Made by a program: the position numbers and the translations under genes
Shown here: positions 4,051 to 9,108 of the stretch, in pieces
Layout of the letters: each line of letters begins with the position of its first letter
Numbering within the stretch: position 1 is the first letter of the stretch
Notes under the pieces: model-generated
What the model was told of the DNA's origin: nothing
Database searches by the model: none
The model's input: the letters and a program-made list of their open reading frames with translations, nothing else
IMG/VR virus record: IMGVR_UViG_3300044808_000005
Location: 1 to 24,230 of that record
Strand: one strand, 5' to 3'
Source of the DNA: a virus
DNA length: 24,230 nt

Positions 4051-4412
4051 TGGAGTATTGTACGTGTAAGTCCCCGCCTGGATACCTGTCGCTTCGAGAC
4101 GAACACAACACGTTTGTCTGTGGGAGCTGTCTCAAGCCTGCCTATCTCGTGTGGCTGGCAAGCGAGCGGTTCTGCGAGGAGTGCGATTGCAGTATCTACA
4201 CTCGATGGGCATTGATCTGCTCATCCTGTCAGACCGCCCTCCTTGATCTGCGGACGGACCTACAGACGGACGGCGTTTCGCTTGACCAGTGGCCGCCTAT
4301 CCTAACTGGGACGCAACTAGACCGGCCGCTAGTCACCTGGCGACGAGCGGCTGAAACGAGTGTGAGCACCTGGCCATGGAGATGGCAGAGCCATGAAACA
4401 TCAAGCAAGTAA
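4050..4412 (+). CDS. Zinc-ribbon hypothetical protein (120 aa)
   Basis: A 120-residue protein whose first 70 residues hold four cysteine pairs or near-pairs: CTC (4-6), CGSC (24-27), CEEC (43-46, with CDC following) and CSSC (57-60). This suggests two small zinc knuckles in tandem. The C-terminal 50 residues are Trp/Thr/Arg-rich with no recognisable fold, and may be partly constrained by the overlapping HNH gene at 4393. The ATG overlaps the upstream stop by one base. The function is unknown; such proteins in phage early regions often bind host proteins or nucleic acid. Confidence 0.6.
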   Translation: MEYCTCKSPPGYLSLRDEHNTFVCGSCLKPAYLVWLASERFCEECDCSIYTRWALICSSCQTALLDLRTDLQTDGVSLDQWPPILTGTQLDRPLVTWRRAAETSVSTWPWRWQSHETSSK

Positions 4413-4662
4413 GGTTCGACGTCAAGCTGTTCTGATTCGAGACGCTTACAAGTGTCAATACTGTGGCGAGCCTTGTAAGTCTGTCGATCATATCATACCT
4501 TGGAATTGGAGCCACAACGACTCTCTCGAGAACTTAGTAGCAGCATGTGTCGTGTGTAACTCAACGGCTGGAGGTACGAAGTTCCCGAGCTTCCTAGAGA
4601 AGAAGGATTATATCTTGCGTCGTCGAGCTAAACAAGCAGCTAGGAAAGGCAAGCGTGGCTGA
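4393..4662 (+). CDS. HNH endonuclease
   Basis: An 89-residue HNH nuclease. It has the first zinc knuckle CQYCG (residues 21-25), SVDHIIPWNW (the DH pair supplying the general base), SLENLVAACVVCNSTAGG with the conserved Asn and the second knuckle, and a basic C-terminus (RRRAKQAARKGKRG). Its size fits a stand-alone homing or nicking HNH protein. The gene is visibly AT-richer than the flanking genes and overlaps its upstream neighbour by 20 bases, consistent with acquisition as a mobile gene. The start follows GGAGATGG within the previous gene. Confidence 0.85.
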   Translation: MKHQASKVRRQAVLIRDAYKCQYCGEPCKSVDHIIPWNWSHNDSLENLVAACVVCNSTAGGTKFPSFLEKKDYILRRRAKQAARKGKRG

Positions 4663-4960: not shown

Positions 4961-5869
4961 ATGGCCAGCAAGGACAAGGCAACCGGAGGCTCCGGCACTC
5001 AGGTGATGATCTCGGCGGACGAGCTTCAGAACCTCGCCACCCGCATGAAGGAGCTGGACGCCAAGATCGCCAGCGCCTCGGGCAACGACGCAGCCGCTCG
5101 CAAGGCGTGGGTCGAGTCCCTCATCTCGCAGAACGCCGAGCAGGTCAACGGCATCGCCGACTCGGTCATCACCCAGCTCGCCGAGCTGGACTTCCCCACC
5201 CTCGTCGGGCTGGTCGCTCGCCTCGAGGACCGCATCAAGAGCGAGCTGGCCCCGAAGGTCGACGCCTACGTGGCCGAGGAGTTCCCCAAGACGCAGACCA
5301 CTTCCAAGGAGGAGGTCGAGACCCTCAAGACGGAGCGCAAGGAGCTGACCACTTCCTTCCGTGCGCTGCGTGAGGTCCTGAACTCGTTCAAGATCCCCAA
5401 CGACTTCGTGGAGGAGCCCAAGCGCTCCGGCGGTGGGCGTCCCGCTGGCTCGGGTGGCGGCTCGACCAAGAGCGGAGCCAACAAGGAGGGCTACCGCTAC
5501 TTCATCGACGGCAACAAGCGTCCGAAGAGCCAGAACTCCTTCTCGAGCGTCGCCTTCTACGCCACGACCAACTGCCCGACGAAGGTGATGGAGGCCAACG
5601 GCGTCTCCGCCGAGGACATCAAGAAGGCCAGCCCGAGGGCTCGCTGGACGGCCGGTGAGCTCAAGACCTTCCTGGGCGAGCAGGGCGTCAAGTTCGGTGA
5701 GGACGACACCTTCGAGGTCACCCTCCCCAACGGCAAGAAGGTCTCCGCCCGGCGCTTCACCGACGAGGACAAGATCGACCTCCAGATCGTCGACGACGCC
5801 AACGAGACCGGCACCGAGGCTCCCACGGCTGACGCCACGGAGCCTGTCGGGGCCGCAGCCGGGGTCTAA
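4961..5869 (+). CDS. Unknown, probably abundant phage protein (302 aa)
   Basis: This 302-residue protein was not recognised. Residues 1-145 are predicted mainly helical and partly coiled-coil, with regularly spaced Leu/Ala and many Lys/Glu. Residues about 148-176 form a flexible linker rich in Gly, Ser, Pro and Lys. Residues 176-275 look like a compact alpha/beta domain (GYRYFIDGNKRPKSQNSFSS, then TNCPTKVMEANGVSAEDIKK and a final beta pair FEVTLPNGKKVSARRF). The tail is acidic and Ala-rich. Codon use is much more GC3-biased than in the neighbours, and it has its own near-consensus promoter and Shine-Dalgarno, which suggests high expression. Its position ahead of the nuclease and recombination genes would suit a DNA-binding or host-takeover role, but this is inference. 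Confidence 0.75.
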   Translation: MASKDKATGGSGTQVMISADELQNLATRMKELDAKIASASGNDAAARKAWVESLISQNAEQVNGIADSVITQLAELDFPTLVGLVARLEDRIKSELAPKVDAYVAEEFPKTQTTSKEEVETLKTERKELTTSFRALREVLNSFKIPNDFVEEPKRSGGGRPAGSGGGSTKSGANKEGYRYFIDGNKRPKSQNSFSSVAFYATTNCPTKVMEANGVSAEDIKKASPRARWTAGELKTFLGEQGVKFGEDDTFEVTLPNGKKVSARRFTDEDKIDLQIVDDANETGTEAPTADATEPVGAAAGV

Positions 5870-5888: not shown

Positions 5889-5917
5889 TTGACCGAGCGG
5901 GCCTAGTCTGCTACGGT
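5889..5917 (+). promoter_or_regulatory. Sigma70-type promoter upstream of the structured leader
   Basis: TTGACC (5889-5894), a 17-base spacer and TACGGT (5912-5917). Six bases after the -10 there is a GTG (5924), the same spacing as at the promoters for the 2366 gene and for whiB, so the transcript would start at or near that GTG. Confidence 0.75.
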
Positions 5918-5923
5918 AAAGGT

Positions 5924-6067
5924 GTGAAGTCACGACCGCCGCTCGAGGGACTGGAGCTTTGTCCCTTCATCCTCCCTCGAGCGGTAGGTCGTGCCTCCAA
6001 GGGGGGCGTCGAGCACCCGGTGCGTCGCCGTCGGTCCTCGACTCCCCCCTTGAAGGTCGGAAGCTAG
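5924..6067 (+). CDS. Candidate leaderless leader ORF (47 aa)
   Basis: A 47-codon frame from GTG 5924 to TAG 6065-6067. It starts exactly where the promoter at 5889-5917 would begin transcription, and its stop codon lies at the Shine-Dalgarno of the nuclease gene (6066-6073). The peptide is basic and Pro/Arg-rich (for example LELCPFILPRAVGRA, then VRRRRSS), with no similarity I recognise. The codons cover both long hairpins, so translation would unfold them. It may be a regulatory leader peptide rather than a functional protein, or an accidental open frame in GC-rich DNA. Confidence 0.4.
   Translation: MKSRPPLEGLELCPFILPRAVGRASKGGVEHPVRRRRSSTPPLKVGS
5931..6052 (+). promoter_or_regulatory. Structured 5' leader with two long hairpins and an anti-Shine-Dalgarno loop
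   Basis: Hairpin 1: 5931-5937 pairs with 5987-5993 (7 bp) and 5939-5950 with 5973-5984 (12 bp), separated by a 1x2 internal loop, with a 22-base apical loop. Hairpin 2: 5998-6013 pairs with 6037-6052 with one mismatch in 16. Neither is followed by a T-run, so they are not simple terminators. In the loop of hairpin 1, GTCCCTTC (5961-5968) is perfectly complementary to GAAGGGAC (6067-6074), which contains the Shine-Dalgarno of the nuclease gene. An alternative stem GGGAC (5947-5951) / GTCCC (5961-5965) would compete with this. The layout suggests translational control in cis, or a separate small RNA. Confidence 0.65.
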
Positions 6068-6078
6068 AAGGGACTCTG

Positions 6079-7053
6079 ATGAGCGACGACACCACAACTC
6101 TGCCCAAGATCAGCCTCAACCAGGCATTGACCTGGGATCGCTGTCACTTCCTCTGGAAGCTCAAGTACGTCGACAAGTACGAGAAGCTGCGCCGAGGACA
6201 CAAGATGGAGTTGGGCAACATGGGACACGCCATGTTGTTCGATCTCTACAAGACCGGCCAGGACCACTCGGCCGACTTCGCAAACACCTGGCTCGAGGAC
6301 ATTCCCTCGCTAGATGGTGAGCAGATTCAGAACATCGCCACCGCTGTCTCCATGTTCAAGCTCTACAGGGAGATGTTTAGCCCGCAGGCTGACAAGGGAC
6401 TCACGACCGTCGAGCTCGAGTTCCACTTCGAGGTCGAGCTGGTCACACCGAAGGGCCGTCACTACATCCTCGAGGGCTACATCGACCGCATGTCCGTCGA
6501 TGACCGAGGGCTCCTCTGGATCGAGGACTACAAGTGGACGACAAAGTTCTGGAGCAGCCTCGAGTTGCTCATGGACCCCCAGCTTCCGCTCTACGCAGCC
6601 GCCCTACGTGCTCTGGGTCGCCCGGTACATGGCTGCATGGTCACTCAGGTCAACACGTACCCATACAAGGGTGACAACCGCTCGAAGAAAACCATCGACG
6701 AGTTGTTCAAGCGTGAACGCTTTGCCGTCTCGACTGACCAGACGGATGCTCTTCTCTACGAGTACGGACGTCAGATGGACGAGATCATCGACGCCCAAGA
6801 GTCGGGAGAACCCCTTCGCCGTTCCCTCCGCCGTGACTGTGGTGGAGGAACCACGTATCCCTGCGAGATGCAGGAACCATGCCTCATGGGCTTGAAAGGA
6901 CTCGATCCGGTCAGCTTTCTGGCCATGTCGAGCGACTACCAGCTCAAGGCGCCCCGCCCTGTAGACCGTCAGGACGGAGTGGCAGTACCTCTGCAAACGA
7001 GAACTCGTCTGCCAGAGATCACGGTCGACGACCAAACCATCATCCTCACCTGA
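6079..7053 (+). CDS. Cas4/RecB-like PD-(D/E)XK exonuclease with four-cysteine cluster
   Basis: A 324-residue nuclease of the RecB/Cas4 group. His50 lies in GNMGHAML, Asp136 in LEGYID, Asp150 and Lys152 in WIEDYK (the D-x-K active site), and Gln168/Tyr172 in PQLPLYAAAL (the QxxxY motif). Four cysteines at 22, 254, 262 and 268 match the iron-sulfur cluster layout of Cas4 and AddB: one near the N-terminus, three near the C-terminus. Such enzymes resect DNA ends to give single strands. With the Sak4-like ATPase and ssDNA-binding candidate just downstream it forms a likely recombination module; there is no CRISPR array here. ATG 6079 is chosen over upstream in-frame starts because AGAAGGGA (6066-6073) precedes it and the long leader is structured. 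Confidence 0.85.
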   Translation: MSDDTTTLPKISLNQALTWDRCHFLWKLKYVDKYEKLRRGHKMELGNMGHAMLFDLYKTGQDHSADFANTWLEDIPSLDGEQIQNIATAVSMFKLYREMFSPQADKGLTTVELEFHFEVELVTPKGRHYILEGYIDRMSVDDRGLLWIEDYKWTTKFWSSLELLMDPQLPLYAAALRALGRPVHGCMVTQVNTYPYKGDNRSKKTIDELFKRERFAVSTDQTDALLYEYGRQMDEIIDAQESGEPLRRSLRRDCGGGTTYPCEMQEPCLMGLKGLDPVSFLAMSSDYQLKAPRPVDRQDGVAVPLQTRTRLPEITVDDQTIILT

Positions 7054-7255: not shown

Positions 7256-7453
7256 GTGGCGGAGTTCGACATCGTTGACGCCAGTGAGGGAGCAGCAAAG
7301 GCGAGTCCGTCTCAACCCCACGTTGATCGGCATTTCATCTTGGACTTGGCAGTTCGTCTCCATGCAGGCGTAGCGCTCGGTCCCGTCAACAACAACGCCG
7401 TCATCGAGACGGCAAGGGAGTTTGAGAGGTACATGTCCGAAACCGCTCCTTGA
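7256..7453 (+). CDS. Small hypothetical protein (65 aa)
   Basis: A 65-residue unrecognised protein starting at GTG 7256, one base after the previous stop, with no independent Shine-Dalgarno, so it is probably coupled. It contains a predicted helix (FILDLAVRLHAGVALG) and a second one near the C-terminus (AVIETAREFERYMSE). Its stop codon (7451-7453) lies inside the -35 box of the promoter for the Sak4-like gene. Confidence 0.6.
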   Translation: MAEFDIVDASEGAAKASPSQPHVDRHFILDLAVRLHAGVALGPVNNNAVIETAREFERYMSETAP

Positions 7454-7477
7454 CTTCTAGGGTCTAGGTGTGATACT
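7450..7477 (+). promoter_or_regulatory. Sigma70-type promoter with dyad around the -10
   Basis: TTGACT (7450-7455), a 16-base spacer and GATACT (7472-7477), with TACTGT (7474-7479) as an alternative -10. An inverted repeat GGGTCT (7460-7465) / AGACCC (7481-7486) brackets the -10 and is a plausible operator. The downstream leader of about 55 bases ends in AGGAGTAGGAGG before ATG 7537. Confidence 0.7.
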
Positions 7478-7536
7478 GTAAGACCCCAAGGTGAAATCCC
7501 CGACACTCCAAGCCAGAGCGCAGGAGTAGGAGGAAC

Positions 7537-8469
7537 ATGAGTGATGTGCCCACATGGATGGAGGGTCAACCCCAGCCATCCGCCCCGGAGGACCCGCATC
7601 CTCCCCAACCCGCCGTGTCAATTCAGGCTCCACAACCTGCGGCCCAAGCTCCGCCTGCCAATGCTCCGGCCATGGCACCGGAGCGGATGGAACTGCTCAA
7701 CCGGATCAACCCGGTGAGCGACAACCCCGGACCCTTCAAGGCGCTCATCTACGGGCCGAAGGGAGTGGGCAAGACGGTGTTCTGCTGTCGAGCCCCTCGT
7801 TGCATCTTGATCGCCGCCGAACCGGGGCAGCGGTCGTTGCTCAACCACCCGGAACTTCGCAACACTCCGGTGCTCCCCGTCAAGTCGTTCAACGACCTCG
7901 ACGAGATCGCCTGGGCCAAGCGGGAAGGCGATCTCGACAGATGGCTCGCCCAACGGTACGGGTGGACCGAGACAGTCATCACGTTCATCATCGACACAGT
8001 GAGCGAGATGGCGATCAAGACAGCCAGCGAGCTGCTCGACAAGGCGTGGCTCAAGGACCAGAACCGCAACCGCTTCATGGTATCGCAAGCCGAGTACCGT
8101 GTACGGAACGAGCTATTCCGGCGCCTCACGGCTGACTATGTTGACCTCGGGGTCAACTTCATCCTCACCGCCCACGAGTCCGAGGTCAAGGACGAGTCGA
8201 CGGGTAGCCTGTTCCTCCGGCCCGACTTGTCGGACGCCATGGCAGGCTCGATCGGGGGGCTGGTCGACGTACAAGGTCGGCTGACCCTCGAAGAAGGAGC
8301 AGATGGCGGCAATTACGTCCGTCGGCTCCAGGTCCACCCGACTCGTCGAGTGGATGCCAAGACACGTATCGGGGGCCTCCCGATCTACGTGGAAAACCCA
8401 TCCATCGAAGCACTCATCACCGCAGGCCAAGGTGCAGACGGCAGAGTGCTGGAAGGAGCATCAGCATGA
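7537..8469 (+). CDS. Sak4-like RecA-fold ATPase (phage recombinase, AAA_24 type)
   Basis: A 310-residue protein. Residues 1-48 are Pro/Gln/Ala-rich and probably disordered. The core has Walker A GPKGVGKT (73-80), a Walker B-like strand ITFIIDT (148-154) and a sensor-like strand FILTAHE (207-213), followed by a beta-rich end. This order and size match the short RecA-fold ATPases of the Sak4 type that phages use for single-strand annealing or strand exchange with an ssDNA-binding partner. That partner is probably the next gene, whose ATG overlaps this stop (ATGA). It has its own promoter at 7450 and a strong Shine-Dalgarno. The exact activity is inferred from family and context. Confidence 0.85.
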   Translation: MSDVPTWMEGQPQPSAPEDPHPPQPAVSIQAPQPAAQAPPANAPAMAPERMELLNRINPVSDNPGPFKALIYGPKGVGKTVFCCRAPRCILIAAEPGQRSLLNHPELRNTPVLPVKSFNDLDEIAWAKREGDLDRWLAQRYGWTETVITFIIDTVSEMAIKTASELLDKAWLKDQNRNRFMVSQAEYRVRNELFRRLTADYVDLGVNFILTAHESEVKDESTGSLFLRPDLSDAMAGSIGGLVDVQGRLTLEEGADGGNYVRRLQVHPTRRVDAKTRIGGLPIYVENPSIEALITAGQGADGRVLEGASA

Positions 8470-9050
8470 CAGACATGACAGGAGGCGGGCTTCCGCAGGG
8501 TATGGCTCCGGGGGGTGACGACTACATCGACCTCGACCTGACGGGAGTAGAGGCGATCCAGGGGTGGCTCCCTGTGCCGAACGGTGTCTACGTCCTCCAG
8601 ATCGCAGACGCCAAGATCGAGCTGGCAAAAGACCCTCGGAACAAGAACATCATCTTCCGAGACGTCGTGGTGGAGCACCCGCAATACACCAACCGCTCCA
8701 TCGGCATCGACCGCATCTTCATCCCGAACCGGGAGACGCAGACGCCCGAGGCCTACGAGAAGACCGCTGGGTTCTTCAAGGGCAAGCTCGAGGCCATCAC
8801 CGGCAGGCCGTACTCGGGCCGCATCAACGTGCGGGAGATGATCGGGCTCAAGTTCAAGGCCGTCGTGATGATGGTCGACGAGGGCTACGGTCTCCAGAAC
8901 AAGATCAACAACTACCTCCCGTACAACGCCGATACGAGCGGCATCGTCGTTCCGCAGACGGCTCCCGTTCCTCGGCCTCCGGGCGGCGGCTCCAATGGCG
9001 GAGGGGGTGCAGTTCAGGACCAGGCAGCAGCGGGACGTTTCCGCATCTAA
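8466..9050 (+). CDS. Probable ssDNA-binding protein (DUF669-like)
   Basis: A 194-residue protein. After a Gly-rich N-terminus, residues about 35-150 show the strand-rich pattern of OB-fold/DUF669-like phage proteins (VPNGVYVLQIADAKIE, then IIFRDVVVEHPQY, a helix FFKGKLEAITG and LKFKAVVMMVDEGYG). The C-terminus is Pro/Gly-rich and ends in AAGRFRI, a flexible tail as in many single-strand binding proteins, though not the classical acidic tip. It overlaps the Sak4-like gene by four bases, the usual partner arrangement. A strong terminator follows, so these two genes probably give a defined transcript. The ssDNA-binding role is inferred from context and fold pattern. Confidence 0.7.
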   Translation: MTDMTGGGLPQGMAPGGDDYIDLDLTGVEAIQGWLPVPNGVYVLQIADAKIELAKDPRNKNIIFRDVVVEHPQYTNRSIGIDRIFIPNRETQTPEAYEKTAGFFKGKLEAITGRPYSGRINVREMIGLKFKAVVMMVDEGYGLQNKINNYLPYNADTSGIVVPQTAPVPRPPGGGSNGGGGAVQDQAAAGRFRI

Positions 9051-9064
9051 GAAGGGACACTCAA

Positions 9065-9108
9065 GGGAGTCCGGCCGGATTAGATACCCGGTCGGGCTCC
9101 CTTCTTTT
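9065..9108 (+). terminator. Intrinsic terminator after the ssDNA-binding gene
   Basis: Bases 9065-9078 pair with 9088-9101 through 14 pairs (two G-U) around a 9-base loop, followed by TTCTTTT (9102-9108). It lies 15 bases after the stop at 9050 and only 18 bases before the next start codon, with no room for a promoter between, so the primase and polymerase genes depend on read-through. Confidence 0.85.

Follow-up and report, generated by a model that had tools for sequence, protein, structure and literature searches.

A structured leader of two tandem hairpins between a conserved promoter and a Cas4-like phage nuclease gene, possibly a gene-boundary element

The Cas4-like nuclease gene of the viral record IMGVR_UViG_3300044808_000005 (IMG/VR) is preceded by a promoter and two strong tandem hairpins, and we tentatively favour a reading in which these hairpins form a gene-boundary element inside an untranslated 5' leader that is partly attenuating or processed. 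The original prediction had seen here a structured leader at the start of the nuclease mRNA, behind a promoter, which senses translation; the structured leader and the promoter have held, the sensing of translation has not.

The window, i.e. the whole analysed record of 24,230 bases, carries genes for a WhiB protein, a Sak4-like protein, a primase/helicase, polymerase A and an endolysin together with virion genes, a gene content that most probably marks it as a piece of an uncultured actinobacteriophage. No DNA-level similarity to the record was present in the phage collection and scans with single proteins recovered no relatives, while profile scans with the polymerase and the helicase yielded the syntenic phage loci used here as relatives (handles beginning with L). 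Profiles of the nuclease and of g4961, the last gene upstream of the hairpins, revealed no loci beyond these, and the helicase profile had no match in cellular genomes. The syntenic order is g4961 ... nuclease, Sak4, (ssb-like), primase/helicase, polA, and the closest relatives (L092-L097, L113) have 41-47% of the helicase residues in common with the record. Promoter counts were taken over 64 syntenic loci. Besides, the record shows a 15-nt inverted repeat (484-521, 93% complementary) early in the 468-1010 frame, whose gene start may be further downstream, and an ORF at 4393-4662 that by eye resembles a small HNH endonuclease. In Microbacterium phage Shocker, a gap of 252 nt (L008:9141-9392) contains a piece resembling a tRNA T-arm (CCTGGTTCAAGTCCAGG) as well as a perfect hairpin some 15 pairs long.

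Like g4961, the promoter and all leader features, the nuclease gene (6079-7053) lies on the plus strand. Its product is a PD-(D/E)XK (Cas4-like) nuclease (PF12705, E 5e-16; phrog_1218 exonuclease, E 3e-28); Arthrobacter and Gordonia phages have nucleases of this type under the annotation 'Cas4 family exonuclease'. Translation is assigned to ATG 6079 because the resulting MSDD start is also that of the L097 nuclease, a predicted leaderless gene; on this agreement, TTG 5959 was rejected as the start. The Shine-Dalgarno sequence GAAGGGAC occupies 6067-6074, and the duplex of this region with the 16S tail amounts to -11.7 kcal/mol. Directly upstream of the nuclease, three other loci (L043:1197-1333, L044:4940-5076, L051:4369-4463) have a common GGTGGG..GGGCG..CGCCCACC arrangement, kept amid otherwise diverged sequence and possibly a pseudoknotted RNA.

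The promoter (5889-5917) combines a -35 element TTGACC (5889-5894), a spacer of 17 nt and an extended -10 element TACGGT (5912-5917) with TGC just 5' of it, and thereby follows the actinobacterial sigma-70 pattern (TTGAC, about 17 nt, TANNNT, here with TGN). Its prediction ahead of the nuclease is supported by the relatives: the class TTGAC / TGN / T[AT]NNNT, no more than 260 nt ahead of the nuclease reading frame, is found in 11 of the 64 loci vs 0.41 expected. This enrichment is about 27-fold, with a Poisson p of about 1e-12 (2e-11 with this record left out) that is optimistic, since the pattern was picked after several such sites had been seen. No part of the finding has gained stronger new support than this. 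The predicted transcription start lies 0 nt from the nuclease start in L097, 22-46 nt in eight loci, 155 nt in this record and 197 nt in L044, i.e. at most 46 nt in 9 of the 11 phages with this promoter class. As far as these distances tell, the long hairpin leader is an addition in this phage and not a common part of the promoter-nuclease unit. In L097 (5607-5642), the ATG of the predicted leaderless nuclease follows six bases past the -10. Two Jasmine-type Arthrobacter phages (L009:4721-4764, L030:4831-4874) carry a perfect, operator-like inverted repeat of 16 bases across the -10 of the nuclease promoter, and a further promoter-like site of the record (7450-7479, TTGACT..TGATACTGT) precedes the Sak4-like gene at 7537.

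Hairpin 1 (5931-5993; -42.7 kcal/mol, z -8.0) has a pyrimidine-rich loop, five weak inner pairs and a stem of 20 pairs with one bulged base (5986), so that the predicted coordinates stand while the predicted count of 19 pairs is corrected. Hairpin 2 (-43.0 kcal/mol, z -5.7) has a core at 5998-6052, extendable to 5994-6056, with 9+6 pairs around one mismatch in addition to outer and inner helices. For both hairpins alike, 0 of 200 shuffles fold as stably, which puts both far beyond chance, and nowhere else in the record is a 70-nt stretch as stable as here. No U-tract terminator was called at either of them, the main stem of hairpin 2 being trailed by TT only (TTGAAGG). Rfam had 0 matches in the record at the gathering cut-off and nothing credible in strict and permissive searches, covariance models of the relatives' hairpins did not match this record, and the record holds no second copy of the two-hairpin element. 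Among the relatives, no sequence homolog of the leader was found. Another strong hairpin of the record, with a TTCTTTTC tail, lies at 9048-9108 between the 8466-9050 gene and the primase/helicase, and strong structures occupy this pre-helicase place also in L097, L014, L113 and L092.

The gene-boundary reading draws on what follows g4961 in other phages. This gene (4961-5869) encodes a function-unassigned protein with an acidic tail in several relatives and has homologs, by alignment and HMM, in at least 12 phage loci; its structure prediction is poor (pTM 0.32), too uncertain for interpretation. Within about 20 nt of the end of the g4961 homolog, eight loci (L092, L093, L094, L095, L097, L014, L113, L029) show a strong hairpin, often a tandem pair and in some cases with a T-rich tail, and in these eight the site is among the top 0.4% of 70-nt windows and ranks 1-3 among gene ends. 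The next feature is a promoter-like site (L092, L093, L095, L113), a predicted tRNA (L097) or another ORF. The stems of L092-L094 are largely kept amid sequence changes, and the L092 hairpin, unlike the element of this record, is called as a terminator with a U-tract. In L006, L049 and L128, the site is unremarkable by gene-end rank. Over all relatives the rank test gives p 0.023, and 0.072 if the close trio enters as one, which is moderate evidence.

In this record, about 45 extra nt with the promoter separate the g4961 stop from hairpin 1, so that the hairpins lie downstream of the promoter, whereas in the relatives they lie upstream of it. Since the record's hairpins have no sequence match to those of the relatives, their equivalence is positional only. 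The recurrence of hairpins after g4961 whatever gene comes next favours a gene-boundary role, and the conserved promoter upstream of the record's hairpins favours partial attenuation or processing over efficient termination, because an efficient terminator at this place would silence that promoter. Against the gene-boundary reading stand the moderate rank test, the three non-fitting loci, the reversed order of promoter and hairpins, the missing U-tract and the missing sequence homology of the hairpins. According to this reading, two rigid tandem hairpins that come after g4961 would constitute the boundary element. As the hairpins are downstream of the nuclease promoter, transcripts from about 5924 would begin with a leader made almost entirely of them and probably left untranslated. 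The hairpins would lower and separate expression at the RNA level, as an inefficient terminator or attenuator and/or as a cleavage and stabilisation point; read-through from g4961 would be cut, the amount of nuclease-operon mRNA would be set, and ribosomes would then initiate independently at the Shine-Dalgarno sequence at 6067.

Less likely, though still worth weighing, is that, by analogy with hairpins between T7 early genes, the hairpins serve RNase III-type processing and/or stabilise the mRNA as a 5' structure, in either case without termination. Hairpin 1 would offer about two turns of nearly perfect duplex, and hairpins return at gene boundaries of the group, such as those past g4961 and past the gene that precedes the helicase, which suits this explanation as well.

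We consider it unlikely that the structured leader by itself, with no leader ORF needed, tunes translation initiation of the nuclease. Such tuning would be in line with a second leader hairpin found just before the nuclease in three relatives (L092:5608-5672, L093:5361-5421, L094:3843-3908), which has a stem of 16 pairs (97.9% of cells paired; three pairs changed at both positions) and a GGAA/GATGA internal loop that does not vary and holds an ATG in the nuclease reading frame. This ATG is a possible second nuclease start (MTRPTSS). Slid versions of the alignment all pair far worse; the covariation score is reached by 34 of 500 shuffles, a control that with n=3 sequences is only suggestive. 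From the compensatory changes in this hairpin, it appears that structured nuclease leaders recur in the group. However, it is not homologous to the record's hairpins, as its covariance model R1 matches its own three members only, and the predicted fold leaves most of the record's Shine-Dalgarno sequence unpaired. Neither this hairpin nor the post-g4961 hairpins matched described families in the searches run.

Equally unlikely is translational control by the leader, in which a ribosome on a leaderless 47-codon ORF would open hairpin 1 and shift the pairing between 5961-5968 and 6067-6074. The ORF (5924-6067) exists as predicted, with GTG at the predicted transcription start and 47 codons plus TAG, a stop that overlaps the nuclease Shine-Dalgarno sequence. 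Its coding statistics are weak: the codon score is -0.04, and 98% of equally long pieces from genes of this phage score higher, although none of the other five frames does better. The ORF has neither a Pfam family match nor a homolog in the relatives. The stretch is GC-rich, with the nuclease frame and the minus strand also open over most of it, and an ORF of 47 codons is unremarkable there; on these statistics, it is probably not a gene. The octamer GTCCCTTC (5961-5968) is indeed the reverse complement of the Shine-Dalgarno sequence, but does not lie wholly in the loop as had been proposed, half of it (5965-5968) being part of the weak inner helix. An equally long complement to the Shine-Dalgarno region arises in 8% of dinucleotide-shuffled leaders, or in 1% with only the loop shuffled, and by itself is weak evidence. 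Opening the octamer costs 1.8 kcal/mol, and the loop-Shine-Dalgarno pairing appears affordable and thermodynamically possible in the model, with 4.8 kcal/mol for opening vs -12.5 kcal/mol for the duplex; its helix enters the predicted minimum-energy fold once 5924-5951 is blocked. In positional equivalents of the relatives, the best complement to the next Shine-Dalgarno sequence is 0-7 nt vs 8 here. The translation-sensing switch is not supported: leaders in relatives with the same promoter class are mostly short or lacking, the ORF scores poorly and positional equivalents do not share the octamer match. A version in which the leaderless ORF and a kissing pair between loop and Shine-Dalgarno sequence keep the nuclease silent as long as no ribosome crosses the leader or stalls in it is quite improbable. 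The idea that hairpin-1 loops of the group mimic the 16S tail was tested and dropped. In positional equivalents, the affinity of the loop for Shine-Dalgarno sequences did not consistently exceed that of shuffles.

This same affinity result speaks against a free-standing small RNA of about 130 nt that would end past hairpin 2 and act via its pyrimidine-rich loop, in a 6C-like manner, or otherwise. The arrangement of a promoter and two hairpins with nothing else between would fit, and sRNAs with C-rich loops are active in actinobacteria (PMC10470900), but the Rfam 6C covariance model gave no match in the record at the gathering cut-off or at E<=10, and the U-tract is missing; we give this explanation little credence. 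Least probable is a nascent RNA antiterminator that modifies RNA polymerase by two stem-loops at the start of an early transcript: the layout is like that of HK022 putL (PMC9378689), but the element is longer, single in the record and absent from the other promoter-proximal leaders of the group.

Taken together, this phage group has a common early promoter before a Cas4-like nuclease, with leaders that have diverged from zero to about 200 nt and structured leader elements in at least three forms. Given these diverged leaders, how phages limit such nucleases becomes a testable question. Among known systems, HK022 put RNA resembles the element in layout only: putL, about 70 nt, likewise places two stem-loops just downstream of an early promoter (PMC9378689), and differs in size and in the points named above. 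The mycobacterial 6C/B11 sRNA also has two hairpins and a loop, rich in pyrimidines, that can pair with a G-rich Shine-Dalgarno sequence; here, besides the lack of an Rfam match, such a loop is present in hairpin 1 only. With leader-peptide attenuators and loop/Shine-Dalgarno sequestration, the leader has in common a short ORF and a possible alternative pairing at the Shine-Dalgarno sequence, unlike them in that ORF and complementarity were not found in relatives. Intrinsic or partial terminators at phage gene boundaries are alike in their strong GC-rich hairpins after a gene and ahead of the next unit, whereas the hairpins of this record stand downstream of a promoter and without a U-tract. 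In T7, RNase III processes hairpins between early genes. The putative site of this record differs by its position at the transcript start, but it has the same kind of long stem between early genes, here of 20 pairs.
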